Shown here: positions 1 through 10,828 of the stretch, piece by piece | How the letters are laid out: every line of letters starts with the position of its first letter | Position numbering within the stretch: position 1 is the first letter of the stretch | Origin: a bacterium | GTDB taxonomy: Bacteria; Krumholzibacteriota; Krumholzibacteriia; LZORAL124-64-63 | Reading direction: 5' to 3' | Assembly (NCBI GenBank): GCA_030591105.1 | Contig: JAUVBS010000033.1 | Span: 1-10,828 of the forward strand | DNA length: 10,828 nucleotides | Made by a program: the position numbers and the translations under genes | The notes under the pieces: model-generated | What the model saw: only the letters and a program-made list of their open reading frames with translations | Database searches by the model: none | Told to the model about the DNA's origin: nothing

Positions 1-727
1 GCACGCGACCGCCCTGGCGCTGGCCGGCGAGCCGCCGCCCGGCTACGAAGCGACGCTGGTCGACTACAGCCGCAGCGGCGACCGCGAACAGGACTACTCG
101 CTCTCGGTGAGCTACGCGAGTGTCTTGCTCAGCGCTGGACCGGATGAATCCGAGAGCGGCTTGCGAAACGCCGAGCGCGAATTCCTGCTCGCCGTTGCCC
201 GTCAAGCGGTGACCGCCGCCGTGCACGACGAACCGCCCCCCGAGATGGCCGCGTTCGCGACGGCCCGTGGCGTTGCGCTCACGGAGCGGTTGACCGAACG
301 GGGGGGAGCATTCGTCACTTTGACGTATCAGGGAGCGCTGCGTGGATGCATCGGCCACATCGAGGCGATCAAGCCGTTGATCGAATCGGTTCTGGACAAC
401 GCACGCAGCGCGGCGATCGGCGACCCGCGTTTCGCACCGGTTCGTCCCGAAGACCTCGACGAGATCGTGATCGAGGTCTCGGCGCTGACACCGCTGCGCC
501 CGGTCGACGGACCGGAAGCGATCACAATTGGCCGGCACGGCATAGTCCTCGAAAAAGGGCAGGCCAAGGCTGTTTTCCTGCCCCAAGTGGCTCCAGAGCA
601 AGGTTGGGACCTCGAAACCACGCTCGCCCATCTGGCGATCAAGGCGGGATTACCAGCTACAGGCTGGAAAACCGGGGCGAGGTATTTCGTTTTCGAGGCC
701 GAGACCATGAAGGAGGGCCGGATCTGA
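1..727 (+). CDS. Memo-AMMECR1 fusion (AmmeMemoRadiSam proteins B and A), 5' truncated
   Basis: The reading frame is open from base 2 to the TGA at 725-727, giving 241 visible residues, so the gene starts outside the window. The first 40 or so residues look like the C-terminal end of a Memo-family protein (YSRSGDREQDYSLSVSYASV, the usual Y-x-x-SGD...V-x-YA ending). After a linker of about 12 residues comes a complete AMMECR1 domain with its hallmark LRGCIG at bases 338-355, followed by GDPRFAPVRPEDL and a W-TGARYFVFE-like end. A GTG at 107 could be taken as a start, but it lies inside the Memo ending with no clear ribosome binding site, so I read one fused polypeptide. Memo, AMMECR1 and a radical SAM protein commonly form a three-gene set of unknown biochemical function; the radical SAM partner would be upstream of the window. 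The fusion is seen directly; the role is not known. Confidence 0.85.
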   Translation, partial: HATALALAGEPPPGYEATLVDYSRSGDREQDYSLSVSYASVLLSAGPDESESGLRNAEREFLLAVARQAVTAAVHDEPPPEMAAFATARGVALTERLTERGGAFVTLTYQGALRGCIGHIEAIKPLIESVLDNARSAAIGDPRFAPVRPEDLDEIVIEVSALTPLRPVDGPEAITIGRHGIVLEKGQAKAVFLPQVAPEQGWDLETTLAHLAIKAGLPATGWKTGARYFVFEAETMKEGRI

Positions 728-751
728 ATCGGTCCGCCTCGTGAATAGCTA

Positions 752-780
752 TTGTTGATATGGCTGAATACGGCTATCTT
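752..780 (+). promoter_or_regulatory. Candidate promoter of the sphingolipid operon
   Basis: TTGTTG at 752-757 and TATCTT at 775-780 are separated by 17 bases, in a locally AT-rich patch between the AMMECR1 gene and the palmitoyltransferase gene. A perfect 10-base palindrome, AATAGCTATT (744-753), touches the -35 hexamer and could be an operator. The predicted transcript would start near 787, leaving a leader of about 67 bases. Match to consensus is moderate and this is inferred from sequence only. Confidence 0.4.
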
Positions 781-853
781 GGTCTGACTCCACGATTAGA
801 AAACGCGGTTGTCGCCGCGGCGAGTTCTTCATACTACGCAAGCGACGGAGGCC

Positions 854-2035
854 ATGGGTCTACTCGACAAAGTTCACAACTTTCAGGCGGCCAAGGATCT
901 GCAGAAAGCAGGTCTTTATAATTGGTTCCGGGTCATCGAGTCGGCCCAGGAGAGCACGGTCAGGTACAACGGGCGTGAAGTGATCATGCTCGGCAGCAAC
1001 AACTACTTGGGCCTAACCAACCATCCCCGGGTCAAAGAAGCAGCGCAGCGGGCCATCGAGAAGTACGGCACTGGGTGCGCCGGATCACGCTTTTTGAACG
1101 GGACCCTCGACATCCACGTCGAGCTGGAGGAGAAACTCGCCAAGCTGGTCGGCAAGGAGGCCGCGCTGGTCTTCAGCACCGGCTTCATGGTGAATCAGGG
1201 GGCGATCTCGACCCTGGTCGGCCGCAACGAGACTGTCATCGTCGACCGGACCGACCACGCATCGATCATCGACGGCACCCGTCTCTCCTTCGGCAATGTG
1301 CGGAAATACCGACACAACGACATGGAGAACCTCGAGTACGTGCTGCAGGCAGAAAAGGACACGAACAAGCTGATCGTCGTCGATGGCGTCTTCTCCATGG
1401 AGGGCGACATCGCCAATCTGCCGCAAATCGTCGAGCTGGCCGAGCGGTACGACGCTGTCCTCATGGTGGACGATGCCCACGGCATCGGCGTGATGGGTGA
1501 CCACGGGCGCGGTACCTGCGAACACTTCGGCTTGACCGATCGCGCGCACGTGATCATGGGCACCTTCAGCAAGTCCTTGGCATCGGTCGGTGGTTTCATC
1601 GCCTCGGACGAGCAGACCATCCACTACATCAAGCACCTCGCCCGCGCGTTGATGTTCTCGGCGAGCATACCGCCCGCTTCGGTGGCGTCGGTCTCCGCCG
1701 CGGTGGACGTCATGCTCGAGGAGGATTGGCGGCACGAGGCGCTCTGGCGCAATACCGAAGTGATGCGCGATCGGCTCCACGAGGCGGGCTTCGACACCGG
1801 CCCCAGCGCGACACCGGTGATCCCGGCCGTGATCGGCGACGACATGACTGCGTACAAGATGTGCGGTAGGCTGTTCGAAGAAGGGGTCTTCGTCAACGTG
1901 GTTGTCTCGCCTGCGGTCGAGGTGGGCAACGCGCTGATCCGACTGAGTCTGATGGCCACCCACACCGAGGATGAGATCCACCAAGCCATGGACAAGATGG
2001 TTAAGGTCGGCCGCGAGTTGGGGACGATCCCTTAA
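854..2035 (+). CDS. spt: Serine palmitoyltransferase (alpha-oxoamine synthase family)
   Basis: This PLP-dependent enzyme of 393 residues would condense L-serine with a long-chain acyl thioester to 3-ketosphinganine, the committed step of sphingolipid synthesis, in the cytoplasm or at the inner membrane face. Visible landmarks are GSNNYLGL (48-54), YGTGCAGSRFLNGTLDIHVELE starting near 71 in part, DHASII with the cofactor-stacking His135, VDDAHG with Asp206 and His209, and the Schiff-base Lys240 in GTFSKS. The AGSRFLNGT segment matches serine palmitoyltransferases rather than 2-amino-3-ketobutyrate ligase or 8-amino-7-oxononanoate synthase. The ATG at 854 begins the conserved MGLLDKV-type N-terminus; GGAGG (847-851) lies only 2 bases upstream, closer than usual. 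A TTG at 809 would add 15 unconserved residues. The gene leads a four-gene operon whose later members fit ceramide synthesis, which is the main support for the substrate. No dedicated acyl carrier protein gene is present here. Confidence 0.85.
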   Translation: MGLLDKVHNFQAAKDLQKAGLYNWFRVIESAQESTVRYNGREVIMLGSNNYLGLTNHPRVKEAAQRAIEKYGTGCAGSRFLNGTLDIHVELEEKLAKLVGKEAALVFSTGFMVNQGAISTLVGRNETVIVDRTDHASIIDGTRLSFGNVRKYRHNDMENLEYVLQAEKDTNKLIVVDGVFSMEGDIANLPQIVELAERYDAVLMVDDAHGIGVMGDHGRGTCEHFGLTDRAHVIMGTFSKSLASVGGFIASDEQTIHYIKHLARALMFSASIPPASVASVSAAVDVMLEEDWRHEALWRNTEVMRDRLHEAGFDTGPSATPVIPAVIGDDMTAYKMCGRLFEEGVFVNVVVSPAVEVGNALIRLSLMATHTEDEIHQAMDKMVKVGRELGTIP

Positions 2036-2085
2036 CCTTCTTAGCCCTCTTGGCCCGGACTGGCGGCTGCGACCGGGGCGGACAG

Positions 2086-2091
2086 AAGGAG
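2086..2091 (+). promoter_or_regulatory. Ribosome binding site pointing to an ATC start
   Basis: AAGGAG is a near-perfect Shine-Dalgarno sequence. Five bases later, at 2097, stands ATC in the frame of the acyltransferase; no ATG, GTG or TTG in that frame lies between 1974 and 2117. The site therefore argues for initiation at ATC 2097. Confidence 0.5.
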
Positions 2092-2096
2092 CTGCC

Positions 2097-3218
2097 ATCG
2101 CCGTAATAGTAACCAAAGTGGCTGGCAAAGCGGATCTGGACGAGTTCTTACGCGTCCCTTACCACCTTTACGCCGACGACCCGCACTACGTATTCCCTCT
2201 GCTCGGTGAGCAAAAGAAATTTTTTGATCCCGACGACAATCCGTTTTACCACCACGCCGAAACGTCGCTCTGGACGGCCCAACGCGACGGCCGCGCCGTC
2301 GGCCGCATCGCCGCTTGTATCGACAGCTACCACAACGACCACCACCAGGAGAAGACCGGCTTCTTCGGTTTCTTCGAGACCGAGGACGACCCCGCCCTGG
2401 CCGAAACCCTGCTCGAAACCGCGAGGGCTTGGCTCGCCGAACGCGGCATGGATGTCATGCGTGGCCCAGCCTCGTTCACCACGAACCACGACTATCTGGG
2501 CCTCTTGATCGAAGGCTTCGACGAGGATCCCACGGTGGGTATGCCGTACAATCCGCCCTACTACGCCGACCACCTCGAGAACTTCGGCTTGACCAAGTCC
2601 AAGGACCTCTGGGCTTGGGACGTGGTAACGGACGGCAAGCAGGTCCCACCGAAGATCCAAAAACTCATCGAGAGTATCCTGCACAACGCGACCTTCACCG
2701 TACGCCCGTTCCGCATGAACCGATTCTGGGAGGACGCGCGGATCGCCCGCTCACTCTACAACGAGTGCTGGAGTCGGAACTGGGGCTTCGTGCCGATGGA
2801 CGACGACGAATTCGCTTTTCTCGCGAAGGACATGAAATCGATGGTCGACGCGGACTTCCTGCTGATCGCGGAGCACGAGGGGCGTCCCATCGGCTTCTCC
2901 TTGACCATCCCCGACTTCAATCAGGCGCTCAAACCATTGCGCGGCAAACTGATGCCGTTCGGCTGGCTGAAATTCCTCCTGGCCAAGCGCAAACTCGATA
3001 GAGCCCGCACCTTGCTGCTGGGCGTACTGCCGGAGTACCGCAAGAAGGGCGTCGATGTGGTGATGGTCTACCGGACCATGGTCGCTGGACAGGCCAAGGG
3101 CTTCGACCGGTCCGAATGTTCCTGGGTGCTGGAGGACAACCGCTCGATGAACCTGATCCTACGCGGCTACGGCGCCAGCAAAAACAAGACCTACCGAATC
3201 TACGATCTTCCTTTGTGA
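2097..3218 (+). CDS. bcerS: GNAT-fold N-acyltransferase, candidate bacterial ceramide synthase
   Basis: About 373 residues. The protein belongs to the large GNAT-like family that often sits beside bacterial serine palmitoyltransferase genes; in Caulobacter such a protein N-acylates 3-ketosphinganine to 3-ketoceramide. Seen here: the N-terminal LYADDPHYVFPL and KFFDPDDNPF block (about 24-50), GRAVGRIAACID strands (65-76), the GFFGFFE block (88-94), MPYNPPYY (149-156), and a C-terminal acyl-CoA-binding-like loop LPEYRKKGVDVV (311-322). The soluble protein has no signal peptide. The start is uncertain. ATC 2097 has AAGGAG 5 bases upstream and includes the first beta strand. GTG 2118 lacks a binding site and would trim that strand. 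ATG 1971 lies inside spt with GAGG directly abutting it. The gap to spt is 61 bases, and the stop overlaps the next start (TGATG). The family assignment is firm; the ceramide synthase role is inferred from neighbours. Confidence 0.7.
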   Translation: MAVIVTKVAGKADLDEFLRVPYHLYADDPHYVFPLLGEQKKFFDPDDNPFYHHAETSLWTAQRDGRAVGRIAACIDSYHNDHHQEKTGFFGFFETEDDPALAETLLETARAWLAERGMDVMRGPASFTTNHDYLGLLIEGFDEDPTVGMPYNPPYYADHLENFGLTKSKDLWAWDVVTDGKQVPPKIQKLIESILHNATFTVRPFRMNRFWEDARIARSLYNECWSRNWGFVPMDDDEFAFLAKDMKSMVDADFLLIAEHEGRPIGFSLTIPDFNQALKPLRGKLMPFGWLKFLLAKRKLDRARTLLLGVLPEYRKKGVDVVMVYRTMVAGQAKGFDRSECSWVLEDNRSMNLILRGYGASKNKTYRIYDLPL

Positions 3219-4279
3219 TGAATGACCGCACCGGTACCGCGCACGAGCGCGCAGAAAATGGGCCTCTGGTCGCACTGACCGGCGCGACCGGTTTTCTCGG
3301 TAGCCACATCGCCGACCTGTTGTCGCTTGGCCGCTGGCGCGTGCGGGCCACGATCCGGCCGAGCAGCGATTTGCGCTGGCTACGCGGCAAACCGATCGAG
3401 ACGGTGACCGCCTCACTGGTAGATCAAGACGACGTACGGCGGTTCGTGGCCGGCAGTGATGCAGTTATCCACTGTGCCGGGGTGGTCAGAGCACGGGATG
3501 AAGCGGCCTACCGAGCGGGCAACGTCGAGACGACACGAATGCTGTTGCAAGAGGCCGCGGCGTCCGGCACAACGCGCACCTTCATCCTGATCTCCAGCCT
3601 GGCGGCTGCTGGGCCGGCTCCGGTCGATGCCCCCCGTCGCGAAGATTCTCCCTGCGCGCCGCTCAGCGCGTACGGCCGAAGCAAGCTCGCTGCCGAACAG
3701 CTACTGCGCGACCAGGAGTGGCCGTTCCGGACCGTCGTACTCCGTCCACCGGCGCTTTATGGCCCCCGCGACCACGCTTTCTTACCGCTTTTTCGTGGGG
3801 CCCAGGCAGGTTGGTCCGCGCGTCTGGGCAACCGCATGACCGGTCTGTCGCTGGTCCACGGGCAGGACGCCGCCAACGCCGCGATGGCGTTACTCACGAC
3901 CGATACGACCGCTGGCGTCTATTTCGTCGACGACGGTTCCGCACCACCCAATCCAGCCGCACCTGAACCGCGCCGCCACGATTGTGGCTACGAGTTGGCA
4001 GAGCTCACGGCAGTCCTGGCCTCGTTACTGCGCCGCCGCATCCGCACGGTGCCGATACCGCTCGGATTGCTGAGGACGCTCTCCCGGCTAGCCGGGAGAC
4101 GTTTGGGGGCGCGGGTACCGATCCTCGGTGCCGACCGCATCGCCGATCTCTCGGCGCCCGGTTGGGTCTGCTGCGGGGACAAGCTGTGCCGGGAAACAGA
4201 TTTCATATCCCGTTTCGGACTGGAGGCCGGCCTGCTCGATACCCTCGCCTTCTACCGCCAGAACGGATGGCTCACGTGA
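3218..4279 (+). CDS. cerR: NAD(P)-dependent epimerase/dehydratase-family reductase, candidate CerR
   Basis: This is a 353-residue extended short-chain dehydrogenase. The N-terminal Rossmann fold has LTGATGFLGSH (Gly22, Gly25, Gly28), and a catalytic triad is visible as Ser126/Ser127 with Tyr152 and Lys156 in YGRSK. RPPALYGPRD follows, as in the epimerase family. In Caulobacter a protein of this family (CerR) reduces the 3-keto group of ketoceramide, and here the gene sits directly behind the candidate acyltransferase, so that reaction is the best guess. A sugar-nucleotide or sterol-type epimerase is the alternative. The ATG at 3218 shares its A with the preceding TGA, which implies translational coupling, and the 3' end overlaps the PAP2 gene by 13 bases. 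A perfect 20-base palindrome lies inside the coding sequence at 4080-4099. Family membership is clear; the substrate is inferred from context. Confidence 0.75.
   Translation: MNDRTGTAHERAENGPLVALTGATGFLGSHIADLLSLGRWRVRATIRPSSDLRWLRGKPIETVTASLVDQDDVRRFVAGSDAVIHCAGVVRARDEAAYRAGNVETTRMLLQEAAASGTTRTFILISSLAAAGPAPVDAPRREDSPCAPLSAYGRSKLAAEQLLRDQEWPFRTVVLRPPALYGPRDHAFLPLFRGAQAGWSARLGNRMTGLSLVHGQDAANAAMALLTTDTTAGVYFVDDGSAPPNPAAPEPRRHDCGYELAELTAVLASLLRRRIRTVPIPLGLLRTLSRLAGRRLGARVPILGADRIADLSAPGWVCCGDKLCRETDFISRFGLEAGLLDTLAFYRQNGWLT
4080..4099. repeat. Perfect 20-base palindrome inside the reductase gene
   Basis: TCTCCCGGCTAGCCGGGAGA equals its own reverse complement. As RNA it would form an 8-bp GC-rich stem with a CUAG loop. 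It encodes part of a Leu-Ser-Arg-Leu-Ala-Gly-Arg stretch near the reductase C-terminus, about 170 bases before the PAP2 start. It may be a chance result of codon choice or an intra-operon mRNA processing or attenuation element. Confidence 0.6.
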
Positions 4280-5214
4280 TAGACCGTCCAATTCGCACCG
4301 CTAGCGTCCTGGATCGCATTGGCGCCGAGCGCGGCATCCTTGAACGACTCGCTGTGGTCTACCTGATCACCAGCGCGCTCTACCCCCTGCTCCGACCGCA
4401 AGTCCTCGCTGATCCCATGGCGAACCTGTTCCTCCACGCAGCGCTGGCTCTGGTCATCTGGTACCTGCCGCCGTGGCTGCGTACGCGGAATGCGTTCGTG
4501 CCGCGGCTGTTGGGCACCATCTACCTACCGTTACTGTTTCCGTTGCTATACAGCGAGATGGGCCGGGCGAGCCTGATCTTTTACGATTTCCGCGACTCAC
4601 TCGACCCGGCCTTCATCAAGGCCGAGAGTATCTTGTTCGGTTGCCAGCCGAGCCTCGAGTGGTCACGCGTCTGGCCGTGGCCGTGGTTCCACGAACTGAT
4701 GGAGTTCGCGTATTTCAGCTACTACTTCGTCAGTGTCACCTGTCTGGTATTGCTGCTGACCGGCCCGGGAATAGCCAGCGACCAGCGCTGGCCCGCGGTG
4801 CGCTCGTTCATCCGTGACCTGTCGGCGACCATGTTGCTCTGCTACACTATCTACACCTTTTTCCCGGTGTGGGGACCGAAGTATTTCGAAACCGGACCGA
4901 TCCCGGTCAGCGGCGGCATCTTCACACGCATCATGCTGCACATACACGAAAACGGGGCCTTCCTAGGGGCCGCATTCCCGTCGAGCCATGTCGCCGCGAC
5001 GGTGATCCCGTGGTGGTACGTCTGGAAATGGCAACCCCGGCACCGCTGGTGGTTCACAACGGTGTTGGTGTTGCTGGCGGCGGCGACGGTCTACTGCCGC
5101 TACCACTATGTGGTGGACGTGATCGGCGGGTTAATACTGGCGTGGGCGATACTCTACCTCGGCACCCGGCTCGATCGTGAGTCCGGACCGATCGTCAAGC
5201 CGGCCGTGGAATAA
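4267..5214 (+). CDS. PAP2-superfamily integral membrane enzyme, candidate sphingolipid headgroup transferase or phosphatase
   Basis: A multi-pass membrane protein of 315 residues with about six to eight hydrophobic segments (roughly 27-45, 55-72, 80-97, 145-166, 184-201, 240-255, 263-277, 283-299). The PAP2 signature is present: a FPVWGPKYF block (199-207), FPSSH with His241, and CRYHYVVD with Arg278, His280 and Asp284. The His-x3-Asp in a YHY-VVD setting and the FPSSH context resemble the Aur1-like branch of PAP2 enzymes, which includes fungal inositol phosphorylceramide synthase, more than soluble phosphatases. As last gene of the operon it most likely acts on ceramide or a ceramide phosphate, adding or removing a phosphoryl headgroup; neither the donor nor the product can be seen. 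ATG 4267 overlaps the upstream gene by 13 bases. GTG 4276 (4-base overlap, GTGA) is a credible alternative start that would remove three residues. Confidence 0.75.
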   Translation: MAHVIDRPIRTASVLDRIGAERGILERLAVVYLITSALYPLLRPQVLADPMANLFLHAALALVIWYLPPWLRTRNAFVPRLLGTIYLPLLFPLLYSEMGRASLIFYDFRDSLDPAFIKAESILFGCQPSLEWSRVWPWPWFHELMEFAYFSYYFVSVTCLVLLLTGPGIASDQRWPAVRSFIRDLSATMLLCYTIYTFFPVWGPKYFETGPIPVSGGIFTRIMLHIHENGAFLGAAFPSSHVAATVIPWWYVWKWQPRHRWWFTTVLVLLAAATVYCRYHYVVDVIGGLILAWAILYLGTRLDRESGPIVKPAVE

Positions 5215-5355
5215 CTCGCCCCGCGCAGACTCTCCTGGTGGTCCACCGCCGCGATCTCGGCATGATGATACAGTCGTGCCTTCAAGAATGTATCCGGCGG
5301 CAAGCGGCAGTGTGATCAAGAACTAGATCATCAGTACACGCCTAATAGATCAAGT

Positions 5356-5377
5356 GAGGACCCCCCGGGGGGTTCTC
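5356..5377. terminator. GC-rich inverted repeat between convergent genes, possible bidirectional terminator
   Basis: GAGGACCCC, then CCGG, then GGGGTTCTC forms a 9-bp stem (one G-U pair) around a 4-base loop. It sits in the 245-base space between the convergent PAP2 and FmdB genes (5215-5459). Neither strand has a clear T-run after the stem, so it is not a textbook rho-independent terminator. The rest of this space holds no supported gene; a smaller 6-bp hairpin, ACGGCC-CAC-GGCCGT, lies near 5429-5443. Confidence 0.35.
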
Positions 5378-5459
5378 GTCGTTTCCGAACCGTAAAGCCA
5401 GGCCAATTCGAGGTGAGTTATTTTCCGCCAACGGCCCACGGCCGTAGAAGAGTCTAGCC

Positions 5460-5678
5460 TCAAGTGAACCCGCCACCGCCACCACAGCCGCCGCCGGTAA
5501 AGCTACCGACCGATCCACCGGACGCCGACGATCCAGTCGCAAAGGTCGAGAAACCCCGCTGAACGTCACGGCAGCCGCAGCTAGGGCACTTCAATTCGCC
5601 CTTGGCCAGCTCGGCGAGCGACAGGATCTCCTCGAACCCGTGGCCGCACTTCTGGCAGGTGAACTCGTAGATGGGCAA
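5460..5678 (-). CDS. FmdB-family zinc-ribbon protein
   Basis: This small protein of 72 residues begins MPIYEFTCQKCGHGFE, the typical FmdB-type opening. Two zinc-binding pairs are visible (Cys8-x2-Cys11 and Cys31-x2-Cys34), and a glycine- and serine-rich tail with one further cysteine ends the protein, which is usual for the family. FmdB was first named as a putative regulator in amide degradation, but most members have no proven function; a nucleic-acid or protein-binding role is only a guess. The start is TTG at 5678-5676, supported by GGAGG at 5690-5686 with 7 bases of spacing and by the conserved MPIYEF. The gene lies 12 bases behind the end of the small upstream reading frame and probably shares its promoter at 5909-5936. 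Confidence 0.85.
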   Translation of the reverse strand: MPIYEFTCQKCGHGFEEILSLAELAKGELKCPSCGCRDVQRGFSTFATGSSASGGSVGSFTGGGCGGGGGFT

Positions 5679-5690
5679 GTCTCGGCCTCC

Positions 5691-5864
5691 CTAATCCTTA
5701 TGGTCGGATCCGGTAGTACCGGAATTTTGACTCTGTCGCACGTTGTCGCTCTGATCTCCGATCGAGCAGCTTGGAGCCGTTCACCCGGCTCGGATACCGA
5801 ATCGGGGCAATACGACGTGAACCAACAACAGATACACGACGACAAAAACCACCAGTTCCGTCAC
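5691..5864 (-). CDS. Candidate small single-pass membrane protein, possible selenoprotein (in-frame TGA at 5783-5781)
   Basis: From GTG 5864 the frame reads a short VTE start, then an unbroken hydrophobic run (LVVFVVVYLLLVHVV) ending LPRFGIRAG, then TGA at 5783-5781 after 27 codons. GAGG (5873-5870) lies 5 bases before the GTG, and the promoter at 5909-5936 gives a leader of about 38 bases. If TGA were read as selenocysteine, the frame would continue 29 codons (with Cys at 5 residues after the TGA) to TAG at 5693-5691, just before the FmdB ribosome binding site. A stem-loop at 5767-5748 starts 13 bases after the TGA and fits the loose bacterial SECIS pattern. Both readings are possible: a 27-residue membrane peptide ending at 5781, or a 57-residue selenoprotein. 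The hydrophobic segment is seen directly; translation and selenocysteine are inferred. I do not recognise a named family. Confidence 0.35.
5748..5767 (-). promoter_or_regulatory. SECIS-like stem-loop downstream of an in-frame TGA
   Basis: On the minus strand GCTCGATC, loop GGA, then GATC, a bulged A and GAGC form an 8-bp stem. The loop begins 21 bases after the TGA at 5783-5781 and its first two bases are G. As I recall them, the published bacterial SECIS search limits are a 4-16 bp stem, a 3-14 base loop with a G in the first two positions, and 16-37 bases from UGA. It fits, but hairpins this loose also arise by chance. Confidence 0.35.
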
Positions 5865-5908
5865 AACAGCCTCACTATCATGGTTAGTTGCGCAGTTTCT
5901 TGACGGAC

Positions 5909-5936
5909 AATATAAGCGACAGCACCGCAGTGTCAA
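5909..5936 (-). promoter_or_regulatory. Sigma70-like promoter reading toward the small frame and the FmdB gene
   Basis: On the minus strand TTGACA (5936-5931) and TATATT (5914-5909) are 16 bases apart, the best consensus match in the window. The transcript would start near 5902. On the plus strand the same AT core gives TATAAG (5911-5916) with TTGCGC (5888-5893) 17 bases upstream, so a weaker outward promoter may overlap it. Confidence 0.6.
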
Positions 5937-6007
5937 GACGGCCGCGGCGGCCCGTTGGCCACCGGTGCCCTACTCGGCGGCTCGCTACACCCGTAACCTA
6001 TATCAGA

Positions 6008-6799
6008 TCAAAACGTTCCACGCACCCAGCCACCATCGGCAACGATGCACTGGCCGGTGATGAAAGCCGCCTGCTCGGACATTAGAAAAGCGACAAGAGC
6101 GGCCAGCTCCGCCGGCTGTCCCAACCTGCCGACGGGAATCTCGGCCTCGTGCCCGGCCCGGATCTCCGCCACACTACGCTGCTCCCGCTCCGCCTGGTCG
6201 GCCATCAGCACATCGACACGGTCGGTGGCGTGATGACCCGGGGCGACCGAGTTTACCGTCACCCCGTGCGGCGCCGCCTCGAGGGCCAGTACCTTGGTCA
6301 ACGCGTGGACCGCCGGGCGCAGTACGTTCGAAAGCGTCAAGTTCGGCACCGGTTGCTGCACGGTCACCGACGTGATCTGAACGATACGTCCCCAACCGCG
6401 CTGCGTCATACCGGGCAACAACAGGCGAGACAGTCTCAGCGCGCTATCGACCAGCAGCTCGTACGCCGCTTCGAATTGCGACGGCCGCAGATCGTTGAGT
6501 CCACCGGGTGGTGGACCGCCCACGTTGATCAGACAACAACTGATCGGACCGAGGCGGTCCTCGGTCTCGTGGACGAACTGCGCCAGGGCTTCCGGATCGG
6601 TCACGTCGGTCGGCCGCGCCACCACGCGCCCGGGACCGGCGGCGTCGACCACGGCCGCGGCTTCCTTCAGAGCTTCTTCGCCACGAGCACACATGGCGAC
6701 GTGCGCACCCTCGGCAGCCAGAAGTTCGGCTACGGCCCGGCCAAAACCGCGCGAGGCGGCCGTAACCAGAGCCACGCGGTCGGTTAATCCGAGATTCAT
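6008..6799 (-). CDS. Short-chain dehydrogenase/reductase family protein lacking the Tyr-x3-Lys pair
   Basis: The 263-residue protein has a Rossmann N-terminus with TAASRGFGRAVAE (TGxxxGxG variant, about 13-25), a DVTD strand end at 65-68, INVGGPPPG (91-99) in place of NNAG, the catalytic-type Ser144 in QITS, and a C-terminal ITGQCIVADGGW. The usual Tyr and Lys, expected 13 and 17 residues after Ser144, are Ser157 and Arg161 in the LTLSNVLR motif. This NxGGPPPG and LSNxxR combination is a recognisable SDR subgroup often annotated as 3-oxoacyl-ACP reductase, so it is a lineage trait and not decay; normal reductase chemistry is doubtful. ATG 6799 is preceded by GAGGGG with 6-7 bases of spacing and matches the domain start; the frame upstream of it is not conserved-looking. 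The gene stands alone, divergent from the peptidase gene. Its substrate is unknown. Confidence 0.8.
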   Translation of the reverse strand: MNLGLTDRVALVTAASRGFGRAVAELLAAEGAHVAMCARGEEALKEAAAVVDAAGPGRVVARPTDVTDPEALAQFVHETEDRLGPISCCLINVGGPPPGGLNDLRPSQFEAAYELLVDSALRLSRLLLPGMTQRGWGRIVQITSVTVQQPVPNLTLSNVLRPAVHALTKVLALEAAPHGVTVNSVAPGHHATDRVDVLMADQAEREQRSVAEIRAGHEAEIPVGRLGQPAELAALVAFLMSEQAAFITGQCIVADGGWVRGTF

Positions 6800-6805
6800 G
6801 ACTAT

Positions 6806-6817
6806 CCCCTCGAGGGG
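6806..6817. repeat. Palindrome covering the ribosome binding site of the dehydrogenase gene
   Basis: CCCCTCGAGGGG is a perfect 12-base palindrome, and the GAGGGG part is the Shine-Dalgarno sequence for ATG 6799. In the transcript CCCC and GGGG could pair around a UCGA loop and hide the binding site; as DNA it could be an operator. Only the symmetry is seen. Confidence 0.45.
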
Positions 6818-6948
6818 CCGCTGAGCCGACGGGCGCTGGTTCGCGCAGGTCCGGCGGACGCGGCACAATGGTTGCGAATCGGAAACGCTGCGCCGCAACA
6901 GGTCTACGCGAAACCGCGGCCGGGAACAACGAGGAATCGTGAGTCGCT

Positions 6949-6970
6949 TGCACGGCTACCCGACCGTGCA
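6949..6970. repeat. Inverted repeat directly before the peptidase ribosome binding site
   Basis: TGCACGG (6949-6955) and CCGTGCA (6964-6970) are perfect 7-base arms around an 8-base loop. The right arm abuts GAGGAAG (6971-6977), the binding site for ATG 6985. It could be an operator half-site pair or an mRNA hairpin affecting translation. No convincing promoter was found in this 185-base divergent space. Confidence 0.5.
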
Positions 6971-6984
6971 GAGGAAGAATACGT

Positions 6985-8466
6985 ATGGCTAGACTGACGC
7001 AACCTGCACGCAACCGGTCGGTCGGCAACACCTTCGGGCGGTTCTTGCTGCTCGGCTTCCTGATCGCAATCTTCGCCGCGGCCTCCTGGTACGCCGTCCC
7101 CCGGCCGCCACAACCGGTAACCTTGACCTATGAATTGGACCTGGCCCACGCTGCCAGAGGCGAGTTGACGATCTGTATGGTCGTCGACGGCGATCTGCCC
7201 GAATCGCTCGAACTCGCATTCCCGCCGGGAGTTTTCGGCGACCGTCGCAATGGCGTTACGCCGTCGATCACCTCGGCCCACGCGCTGTTGAGAAACGGGA
7301 GGATCGGCGACTCCTTACCAGTGAGCGTTACCGTCGACGGCTGGCGCTTACCGCTTTTGCCCGGCGAGCGTATCGGGTTCACCTACCGGATCGACCTGGC
7401 GTCCGTCGGCCAGCTCGAGCAGGACATCCGCAAACACATTTCCGCGCCGGTCGTCGGCGGCCTACGGGCGGTCGGCTTCGAGGTCTTTCTGCAACCGCGT
7501 GGGGTGCAGGTCGGCGATATCTCGGTCAACTTTCGCAACGGTGGCGGCATGCCGTTGGTCGTACCGTGGAACGCCGGTCCGATCACCGACGACGGACCGG
7601 TGCCGGCCAATCTGCTCTATCACCCGCGTGACCAGCGCGATTTGAACAACTCCTTGATCGCTTGCGGCGACCTGCGCATCGCCACCGCCGAGGCCGGAGA
7701 CTCCCTGATTCGCTTTGCCACCGCCGACCGCTGGCTGTTTGCCGATCGCGACGTCCTGCAGCTGCTGCAGCGCATCGCGCGGGCGGAGATCGCGTTTTTC
7801 GGCACCGCGCCCGAACCGTTGATCACCTGTCTGCTTGCCGCAAACCCGGTCGGCGGCGCCGAACGGTTCGACACTTACGGCGTGCACACCGGCTCCTCGA
7901 TCCTGCTGCTGCTCGATGCACAGACCACCTACGCCGACCTGAACGAGAGCGCGGCGAGCGTCTTGGCCCACGAGATGTTTCACGGCTGGCTCGGTGAGGC
8001 GATCCGGCAAGTGGATCCGGCCACTCTCTGGTTCACCGAAGGGGCGACGACTCTCTACGCGGCGCGTATGCTCGTCGCCGCCAACGTGTGGTCGCCGCCA
8101 TACGGTCGGCAGATGCTCGAGGCGCGGCTCGCGCGTGACTACTACGGCAGTACGCGGCTGGGCCAGATCTCGGTCGCTGCCGCCGCCGCGCAGGTGATGG
8201 CCGACCCCGAGACGGTACGATTCGGCTATGCTGGCGGCGTGGCGGTTTGCGCCGCACTCGAGCACTCGTTGATCGCGCAAGGCAGTTGCGGTGACCCACT
8301 GGGCGAACTGCTGCGGTACCTCTATAATCAGGGCAGCGACGCTCCACTCACACGCGCCGGCATCGTCGCGGCGGCCCTCGCCGTGACCGGCATCGAGTGC
8401 GGCACGTGGCTCGACCACTACGTCTACGGCACTGAGCCCTTGCCGTCGATCGAGCCGATGATATAA
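6985..8466 (+). CDS. Membrane-anchored M61-like zinc metallopeptidase
   Basis: Of 493 residues, the N-terminus has basic residues followed by one hydrophobic segment (about 20-38) that should act as a signal anchor, placing the rest outside the cytoplasm. The catalytic motif is HEMFH (His329, Glu330, His333) with Glu352 in WFTEGAT 18 residues later, giving the HExxH-x18-E zinc site of gluzincins. The following TLYAARML helix and the ending WLDHYVYGTEPLP resemble the glycyl aminopeptidase (M61) family more than the M1 aminopeptidases, since the M1 GAMEN motif is not seen. A C-terminal PDZ domain, common in M61, is absent. The region 45-250 is probably beta-rich. ATG 6985 has GAGGAAG 7-8 bases upstream. 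The gene ends 64 bases before metG, and its stop codon overlaps the probable metG promoter. The natural substrate is unknown. Confidence 0.75.
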   Translation: MARLTQPARNRSVGNTFGRFLLLGFLIAIFAAASWYAVPRPPQPVTLTYELDLAHAARGELTICMVVDGDLPESLELAFPPGVFGDRRNGVTPSITSAHALLRNGRIGDSLPVSVTVDGWRLPLLPGERIGFTYRIDLASVGQLEQDIRKHISAPVVGGLRAVGFEVFLQPRGVQVGDISVNFRNGGGMPLVVPWNAGPITDDGPVPANLLYHPRDQRDLNNSLIACGDLRIATAEAGDSLIRFATADRWLFADRDVLQLLQRIARAEIAFFGTAPEPLITCLLAANPVGGAERFDTYGVHTGSSILLLLDAQTTYADLNESAASVLAHEMFHGWLGEAIRQVDPATLWFTEGATTLYAARMLVAANVWSPPYGRQMLEARLARDYYGSTRLGQISVAAAAAQVMADPETVRFGYAGGVAVCAALEHSLIAQGSCGDPLGELLRYLYNQGSDAPLTRAGIVAAALAVTGIECGTWLDHYVYGTEPLPSIEPMI

Positions 8467-8467
8467 T
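8440..8467 (+). promoter_or_regulatory. Sigma70-like promoter of metG, overlapping the peptidase stop codon
   Basis: TTGCCG (8440-8445) and a perfect TATAAT (8462-8467) are separated by 16 bases. The -10 hexamer includes the TAA stop of the upstream gene (8464-8466). Transcription would start near 8474, giving a leader of about 57 bases to metG, so metG can be expressed independently of the peptidase gene. Confidence 0.55.
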
Positions 8468-8530
8468 TTCCTTACCGAACTCCAGAGTCCGCCGCACCGT
8501 AACATTTGCCCCTAGCCGCGGAGAAGCCGT

Positions 8531-10255
8531 GTGAGTTCCGCAGACGAATCGGGTCAGCAGGCCTTCAAGCGCACGCTAGTCACCGCCGCTCTACCCTACG
8601 CCAATGGCGACATCCACCTGGGACATCTCGCCGGAGCGTACCTACCGGCCGACCTCTACGTCCGCTACCTCCGTTTGCGCGGCGAGGAGGTACTCTTCAT
8701 CTGCGGCAGTGATGAGTATGGAGTGCCCATCACGTTGACGGCTGAAAAGCTGGGGATCTCGCCCCAGGAACTGGTGGACCGGAATTACGAATCGATCAGG
8801 AAGAGCTTCGCGGATTTTGGCATGAGCTTCGACAATTACAGCCAGACCAGCCGGGAGATTCACACCGAGACCAGCCAGGCTTTCTTTACCGACCTGCACA
8901 CCCAAGGGCTGTTCAAACAGAAGACCACCGACCAGTTCTATAGCGTCAGTCAGAACCGGTTTCTAGCCGACCGCTATATCGAAGGCACCTGCCCCAAATG
9001 CGGCAGCGAAGATGCGCGCGGCGACCAGTGCGAGAAATGCGGCACCACCCTGGATCCCACTGAACTGATCAACCCCCGCAACGCCATGGACAACAGCCCC
9101 CTGGAGCTGCGCAAGACCACCCACTGGTTCCTTCCCCTGGGCGACTGGCAGGAGAAGCTCAAGGCCTTCCACGGTCGGCATCCGGAGTGGAAGGAGAACG
9201 TACTACGCTACTGCAACGGCTGGTTTGCTGACGGTTTGCAGGACCGGGCCATGACTCGTGACCTGAGCTGGGGAGTACCCGTACCCCTGCCCGATCACGA
9301 GGGCAAGGTGATGTTCGTGTGGTTCGATGCTCCCATTGGCTACATCTCCGCCACCCGTGAGTGGGCCGCCGAAAACGGCGCCCCTGAAACCTGGCGAACC
9401 TGGTGGCAAAACCCCGACACTCGTCTGGTACATTTCATCGGTAAGGACAACATCTTTTTCCACGCGTTGCTGTTTCCGATCATGCTGATGGCCCACAGCG
9501 AAAACTACATCCTGCCGGACAATGTCCCGGCCAACGAGTTCCTGAATCTGGAAGGCCAGAAACTTTCGACCAGCCGCGGTTTCGCCGTCTGGCTACCGGA
9601 ATACCTGGCCAAGTTCCCGGCCGACGCGTTGCGTTACACACTGGCGCGCAACCTGCCGGAGACGCGCGACATGAACTTCACTTGGCAGGGATTCCTGGCG
9701 CGCAACAACAGCGAGCTGGGCAACAATTTCGGCAACCTGATCAACCGGGTGTTGACCTTCTGCCACAAGTATTTCGCCGGCGTGGTACCGGAGTGGTCGC
9801 TGGACGCAGCGACCGATCTGGACCGCACCACCCTCGCCGAGGTCGAGGACCTTTTGCAACGCTGGTCCGAACACATGGCGCGTTTCGAGCAGAAGGCGGC
9901 CGTCAACGTGGCGTTTCAGGCCGGTCAGGCAGGTAACCGTTACTTCGACGAGTCGGCGCCATTCCGCACACGCAAGAGCGACCTGGCACGCTGCGGCCAG
10001 AGCGTCGGCGTCGCGATCCAGATCGTGCGCATGCTCGCGCTGATGCTCGCACCGGTCACGCCGTTCGCCATGACGAAACTGTGGGGCTGGCTCGGTATGG
10101 AGAGCGATCTGTGGCCCGGCGGCTGGCAGGAAGGCACCCTTCCGATCCCGTCGGGCCGGATACTGGGCCAACCGGAGATCCTGTTCCCGCGTATCGAAGA
10201 CCAAGCCGTCCAGATCGAGATCGAGCGGTTAGAAAAACTGCTCGACAATGCGTGA
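8531..10255 (+). CDS. metG: Methionyl-tRNA synthetase
   Basis: This class I synthetase attaches methionine to tRNA-Met in the cytoplasm. In order: the HIGH motif as HLGH (29-32) within ALPYANGDIHLGH, SDEYGVP (60-66), the connective zinc knuckle with Cys154/Cys157 and Cys167/Cys170, FVWFDAPIGYIS (262-273), HFIGKDN (301-307), and the KMSKS loop as KLSTS (344-348), then an alpha-helical anticodon-binding domain. At 574 residues it stops after that domain; the C-terminal tRNA-binding domain of the 677-residue E. coli enzyme is missing, as in many MetRS. The SDEYGVP and KLSTS forms recall Bacteroidota-type enzymes. Start is GTG 8531 with GGAG at 8520-8523, 7 bases upstream; the conserved LVTAALPY begins about 15 residues in. 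It converges on guaA with 26 bases between the stop codons. Confidence 0.95.
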   Translation: MSSADESGQQAFKRTLVTAALPYANGDIHLGHLAGAYLPADLYVRYLRLRGEEVLFICGSDEYGVPITLTAEKLGISPQELVDRNYESIRKSFADFGMSFDNYSQTSREIHTETSQAFFTDLHTQGLFKQKTTDQFYSVSQNRFLADRYIEGTCPKCGSEDARGDQCEKCGTTLDPTELINPRNAMDNSPLELRKTTHWFLPLGDWQEKLKAFHGRHPEWKENVLRYCNGWFADGLQDRAMTRDLSWGVPVPLPDHEGKVMFVWFDAPIGYISATREWAAENGAPETWRTWWQNPDTRLVHFIGKDNIFFHALLFPIMLMAHSENYILPDNVPANEFLNLEGQKLSTSRGFAVWLPEYLAKFPADALRYTLARNLPETRDMNFTWQGFLARNNSELGNNFGNLINRVLTFCHKYFAGVVPEWSLDAATDLDRTTLAEVEDLLQRWSEHMARFEQKAAVNVAFQAGQAGNRYFDESAPFRTRKSDLARCGQSVGVAIQIVRMLALMLAPVTPFAMTKLWGWLGMESDLWPGGWQEGTLPIPSGRILGQPEILFPRIEDQAVQIEIERLEKLLDNA

Positions 10256-10281
10256 GCGCTACGACCGCTCCGATCGCCCCT

Positions 10282-10828
10282 TCACTCCCACTCGATGGTC
10301 CCGGGCGGCTTCGATGTCACGTCGAGGGCCAGGCCGGAGATTCCTGGTAGGGCCGTGATCGATGCACGCAACTCGGCGAGCAGGGCGTCCGGCAACGGCG
10401 CCGGCTTGGCGGTCATGGCGCGCTCGGAATGGACCGGCCGCACGATACAGTATTCACGGCCGCGGCCGTCGACTTCCAGCGGGACCAGAACCGTTGGACA
10501 CTGCCAGATTTCCTCATACACACCGTGCCGCCGTAGCCCCTGCATGACCAGGTGGTCGGCTTCACGCAGCAGATCGAGCCGCGCCCGTGTCGTGGCCGCT
10601 GCGAGCGGTTGCAGTTGTTCGGGCAGCGCCTCACCCAGATTCCAGAGGCAACGGTTCAGCCCCGGCACCTCCTTCAAGATAGCGCCGGACGCTTCGAGCA
10701 AGCGCTCCCAGGACGTGGTGCCGTGCAACAGTACGGGGTGTTCGTAGGAACGCAGATCTGCTTTCACACCGACCGACTTGATGGGCAGCACACGCGCGGT
10801 GAGGTCGAACCGCGCGGCCATTTCACAC
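10282..10828 (-). CDS. guaA: GMP synthase (glutamine-hydrolysing), C-terminal part, 5' truncated
   Basis: The frame ends with DVTSKPPGTIEWE, the signature C-terminus of GMP synthase, which aminates XMP to GMP. The frame stays open to the window edge, past the ATG at 10821, so about 182 residues are visible and the amidotransferase and ATP-pyrophosphatase domains lie outside. Two dimerisation modules can be seen. The first is LPIKSVGVKADLRSYEH through VPGLNRCLW. The second is LLREADHLVMQGLRRHGVYEEIWQ in part, through VLVPLEVDGR, RPVHSERAMTAK and PGISGLALDVTSKPP. Standard bacterial GuaA has only one such module, whereas human GMPS has two (D1 and D2) in this order. The identity is certain; the relationship to the eukaryotic type is my alignment from memory. 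Confidence 0.9.
   Translation of the reverse strand, partial: CEMAARFDLTARVLPIKSVGVKADLRSYEHPVLLHGTTSWERLLEASGAILKEVPGLNRCLWNLGEALPEQLQPLAAATTRARLDLLREADHLVMQGLRRHGVYEEIWQCPTVLVPLEVDGRGREYCIVRPVHSERAMTAKPAPLPDALLAELRASITALPGISGLALDVTSKPPGTIEWE

Follow-up and report, generated by a model that had tools for sequence, protein, structure and literature searches.

Ceramide clusters of the Caulobacter and Sphingomonas type encode a serine palmitoyltransferase (SPT; Spt), an acyl carrier protein (ACP), the reductase CerR, an acyl-activating enzyme and the ceramide synthase bCerS. Among enzymes that place a phosphoinositol headgroup on ceramides, the inositol phosphorylceramide synthase AUR1 is an antifungal target, and the phosphoinositol dihydroceramide synthase of Bacteroides is, to our knowledge, not encoded within an SPT-bCerS-CerR operon. 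Here we analyzed a stretch of 10,828 nucleotides from a member of the Krumholzibacteriota (assembly GCA_030591105.1, contig JAUVBS010000033.1, positions 1 to 10,828 of the forward strand; "the window"), which carries four tightly spaced plus-strand genes at positions 854 to 5214. We put the probability at about 0.62 that they form a complete sphingolipid operon, with the enzymes for a dihydroceramide backbone followed by an AUR1-like inositol phosphorylceramide step. Gene content, homology, gene order, motifs and predicted-fold similarity are the basis of this reading; from homology we infer what the three backbone enzymes do and in which order they act.

The window shares homologous SPT, GNAT-family N-acyltransferase and short-chain dehydrogenase/reductase (SDR) genes with the Caulobacter and Sphingomonas type of cluster. 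Unlike those clusters, it lacks the ACP gene, the acyl-activating gene and an LptF/LptG pair, and its genes form a single coupled unit in which an AUR1-like enzyme comes next. The actinobacterial units of Streptomyces NBC_01001 and Rubrobacter radiotolerans have the same SPT-GNAT-SDR order and tight junctions, but encode a condensation-domain protein (Streptomyces) or a sulfatase-domain protein of the lipoteichoic acid (LTA) synthase family (Rubrobacter) where the window has a PAP2 protein. The original prediction, made from the DNA sequence alone, had called the operon a compact version of the pathway. This holds for the one tight unit that includes gene 4, and less so for the first three genes, whose order is also found on Streptomyces and Rubrobacter plasmids. 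Genes 1 to 3 represent the already known bacterial ceramide pathway, and gene 4 is the added part. Judged by its sequence, the operon is a family-wide variant of that pathway, with a step after dihydroceramide built in via the AUR1-like enzyme.

Results

The unit of about 4.4 kb consists of an SPT gene (gene 1, 854 to 2035, 393 amino acids), a GNAT gene of the bCerS/YghO type (gene 2, 2097 to 3218, 373 amino acids), an NAD(P)-dependent epimerase-like SDR gene of the CerR type (gene 3, 3218 to 4279, 353 amino acids) and a gene for an AUR1-like PAP2_3 membrane protein, the proposed phosphoinositol-dihydroceramide synthase (gene 4, 4267 to 5214, 315 amino acids). Their Pfam domains are, in order, aminotransferase I/II, Acetyltransf_1, Epimerase (PF01370) and PAP2_3 (PF14378). 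As predicted, the junctions are a 61-base gap, a TGATG overlap and a 13-base overlap. With the start codons of the relatives chosen by script as those nearest to the expected length, the GNAT-SDR spacing ranged from -4 to +13 in all 21 operons measured, the window included, and SDR and PAP2 overlapped in 17 of 19, the exceptions being L044 (+38) and L053 (+17). The conserved start position of the GNAT gene has no ATG, GTG or TTG. An apparent ATC start at 2097 to 2099 aligns with the start codon of the relatives and lies downstream of the ribosome-binding-like AGAAGGAG (2084 to 2091, plus strand); it may be one of the rarely used start codons, or the assembly may be wrong at this point.

By its sequence, gene 1 is a serine palmitoyltransferase. 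Its best PDB matches are the two SPT chains 3a2b and 8guh of Sphingobacterium multivorum (455 bits), compared with 314 to 316 bits for chains of the BioF/Kbl type and 278 to 287 bits for Kbl. Its PLP-lysine, DHAS and VDDAH motifs match the solved SPT in an alignment to 3a2b, and presumably have the same roles there. NCBIfam SerpalmtaseCFB (NF047600) tops the 24 models listed. In a tree of 36 proteins, which took in 27 of the 32 SPTs neighboring a GNAT gene and in which BioF forms a long branch, a branch with 100/99 support splits an SPT side (the window, Sphingomonas, the E. coli cluster, Streptomyces and Rubrobacter) from a side with E. coli Kbl, E. coli BioF and a second homologue of gene 1 from the window's own genome, which is a Kbl by cut-off. 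One of the 27 GNAT-neighbor proteins, that of L064, falls with the Kbl/BioF controls. Gene 1 did not cluster with the 2-amino-3-ketobutyrate ligases, the outcome that the original prediction had named as speaking against it.

Could genes 1 to 3 lie outside the ceramide pathway, with gene 1 encoding Kbl or another amino-ketone synthase and the GNAT acylating a different substrate? Pairwise BLAST points that way, with 37% to E. coli Kbl and 35% to Sphingomonas SPT, as do the score of 587 bits with NF047600, which falls short of the equivalog cut-off of 640, and the remaining bacterial SPT chains listed, those of the Sphingomonas type (2x8u, 2jg2 and similar), which at 264 to 270 bits score below Kbl. 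However, pairwise BLAST by itself would not settle SPT versus Kbl; the tree and the profiles, with the 455-bit SPT match, led us to reject Kbl or BioF identity, and the same three partners occur in clusters with an annotated spt. We regard this explanation as highly improbable.

The products of genes 2 and 3 resemble those of four named clusters. The GNAT, which belongs to the E. coli YghO family and whose gene adjoins that of SPT, is 35% identical to the Sphingomonas, 36% to the E. coli (YghO), 38% to the Streptomyces and 41% to the Rubrobacter protein, and the SDR is 32 to 38% identical to its counterparts. The structures closest to the predicted GNAT model (mean pLDDT 66) are tandem GNATs. 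On a Sphingomonas parapaucimobilis plasmid the GNAT homologue has an SDR-ACP-aminotransferase set and LptF/LptG nearby. In E. coli, YghO sits with an aminotransferase, an ACP, an SDR and a fatty acyl-AMP ligase; RefSeq names the aminotransferase spt in the full-length rows listed, and at least 80% of the stretch from this gene to yghO is present in 4022 of 5426 complete E. coli genomes. One E. coli sequence (NZ_MG591698.1, L081 3531 to 9128) has a Sphingomonas-like set of spt, ACP, SDR, acyl-AMP ligase and yghO genes with an extra LptF/LptG pair adjoining.

These matches in sequence and gene neighborhood support genes 2 and 3 as a putative bCerS-type GNAT and CerR-type reductase, and agree with the ceramide core (Spt, bCerS, CerR) originally proposed; the GNAT assignment comes from comparison with the four named clusters. 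Membership in the GNAT family is by itself no proof of a ceramide synthase, because the window's own genome has a second YghO-type GNAT (34%) on another contig (G000:C476, L117 166 to 1323), and the 15 kb covering a Roseomonas homologue encode LptF/G permeases but not SPT.

Gene 4 was expected to complete or modify the headgroup, and its motifs and AUR1-like predicted fold support such a role. H241, H280 and D284 are invariant across 19 aligned sequences (window included), and none of the 19 has a KX6RP motif; the reading of the His-His-Asp and KX6RP motifs follows their roles in AUR1 and PAP2 enzymes. The PAP2 proteins of L062 and L077 (21% identity) were left out of one alignment (A3) and kept in another (A1). 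Among structures similar to the predicted fold, the fungal AUR1 ranks first (9vj4 and 9ivc), with 248 to 268 residues aligned and the FPSxH and HYxxD motifs in register, but gene 4 is bacterial and the identity in the structural alignment is 12%. The proposed reaction is that of the Bacteroides phosphoinositol dihydroceramide synthase, whose model (NF052609) weakly matches 5 of the 19 gene 4 members (best 1.3e-9), whereas the window protein scores 22 bits, below the cut-off of 480. Gene 4 could instead encode a PAP2 phosphatase acting on a sphingoid-base or ceramide phosphate, or on an unrelated lipid phosphate, with the headgroup added elsewhere. Phosphatases, too, use PAP2_3/PAP2 domains and a His-His-Asp site, and the top PDB profile match is to a PAP2 phosphatase (5jki), at 0.0004 over 57 residues; next to the AUR1 ranking of the whole predicted fold, we consider a phosphatase quite improbable. 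On plasmids, PAP2 homologues amounted to two weak Bacteroidota records; one of the two, from Prevotella, has a PAP2_3 domain and no NCBIfam match at 1e-5.

Which headgroup would be transferred? The same operon could deliver another one, phosphoglycerol or phosphoethanolamine, to dihydroceramide. The fold class spans ceramide phosphotransferases with several donors (AUR1 and SMSr), and the genes following SPT-GNAT(-SDR) elsewhere vary, from the Rubrobacter and Streptomyces proteins mentioned above to an LPG_synthase_TM protein, which follows SPT-GNAT in L061. On the other hand, phosphatidylserine (PS) decarboxylase was found in 0 of the 38 genomes of the window's family (own genome included), compared with 6 of 14 controls, which disfavors phosphoethanolamine. 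Inositol-phosphate synthase (MIPS) is present in 32 of the 38 (32 of 37 relatives), compared with 6 of 14 controls; it was not found in the window's own genome, which is 82.6% complete. Of CDP-alcohol transferases, 19 family genomes have one, 12 have two, 4 have three and 3 have none. Five of these proteins were scanned against models: three best match archaetidylinositol-phosphate or phosphatidylinositol (PI)-phosphate synthase models at 125 to 139 bits, below the cut-offs of 170 to 180 (the own genome's protein, one of these three, scores 132 to 139 bits, below 170/180), the other two match weakly, and none reaches the pgsA cut-off. The closest PDB relative of a CDP-alcohol transferase from another family genome (G024) is a phosphatidylinositol synthase. 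These gene contents suggest that inositol is available in the family and that ethanolamine is unlikely as the headgroup, and we consider a headgroup other than phosphoinositol unlikely. We infer the use of inositol by gene 4, and hold this less firmly than the backbone activities.

The GNAT gene was found in 75 of the 193 genomes searched (own included) and in 32 of the 38 family genomes. The neighborhood survey proposed with the original prediction found AMMECR1-SPT-GNAT-SDR-PAP2 complete in 17 of the first 20 family loci, the other three ending at contig edges; eight further loci comprise three complete, four cut by contig ends and one altered (G037). Across the 38 family genomes, 30 have both GNAT and PAP2, 5 neither, 2 only GNAT and 1 only PAP2 (Fisher test, p 2e-4), counting G016 without PAP2 and G015 without GNAT, though both operons are cut by contig ends. 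Among the 20 best-scoring GNAT loci outside the family, SPT lies immediately upstream of GNAT in 13, GNAT-SDR-PAP2 are ordered on one strand in 5, and all four genes occur in 3 (L071, L073 and L076). Two Cloacimonadota contigs (L003 1276 to 3292 and L004 2723 to 4736) have GNAT followed by a PAP2_3-type protein (domain scan on L003), with YggS-like and PlsY-like genes, named by eye, upstream; the 3.9 and 9.8 kb covered contain no SPT gene.

The conserved neighbor upstream of SPT is an AMMECR1-domain gene (107 to 727, plus strand, PF01871), whose frame (1 to 727) is open to the left edge of the window. In the relatives L047, L048 and L053 this frame spans 486 to 640 amino acids, which suggests a longer or fused protein. 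The neighborhood is the sole evidence for AMMECR1 as a pathway gene, and we did not retain it as one; it is probably outside the pathway. Near the right edge starts an open reading frame on the minus strand (10285 to 10821) with a GMP synthase C-terminal domain, probably a guaA fragment.

Discussion

We propose that SPT would form 3-ketosphinganine by condensing serine and a fatty acyl thioester, that the bCerS-type GNAT would N-acylate this product, and that the CerR-type reductase would then reduce the keto group to yield dihydroceramide. Genes 1 to 3 follow the same order as these steps in the Caulobacter pathway. The AUR1-like PAP2 protein would finally transfer phosphoinositol from phosphatidylinositol onto dihydroceramide at its His-His-Asp site, giving inositol phosphorylceramide.

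Several observations weigh against an inositol phosphorylceramide operon. The sequence-profile match of gene 4 to AUR1 is non-significant (E 0.013 to 0.018). Within the family, MIPS is independent of PAP2 (Fisher test, p 1.0), and outside it MIPS occurs in 16 of 20 GNAT genomes, 6 of the 7 with a PAP2 match in the locus and 10 of the 13 without; hence, the presence of MIPS does not mark genomes that have the PAP2 enzyme. In G037 (L127 2946 to 5348), SPT and GNAT are kept, and an 801-amino-acid unrelated gene replaces SDR and PAP2. Moreover, the one candidate promoter originally reported found no support: a sigma-70 consensus scan of positions 600 to 5500 gave none, with 1.2 expected in shuffles, although other promoter types are possible.

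The organism probably makes a complete sphingolipid, to judge from its genes. More tentatively, and at somewhat less than even odds, we picture an uncultured family with phospholipid synthesis of the PI-phosphate type, no PS decarboxylase and a self-contained inositol phosphorylceramide operon to which the AUR1-like enzyme is translationally coupled. Expression of this single 4.4-kb unit could put an entire bacterial sphingolipid pathway to the test, headgroup step included, and the gene 4 family would give structural and evolutionary studies of AUR1 a set of remote bacterial relatives for comparison. If the proposed pathway is correct, the linkage of GNAT, SDR and PAP2 seen in other lineages would imply that a complete inositol sphingolipid pathway like that of eukaryotes was put together in bacteria from independent backbone enzymes.
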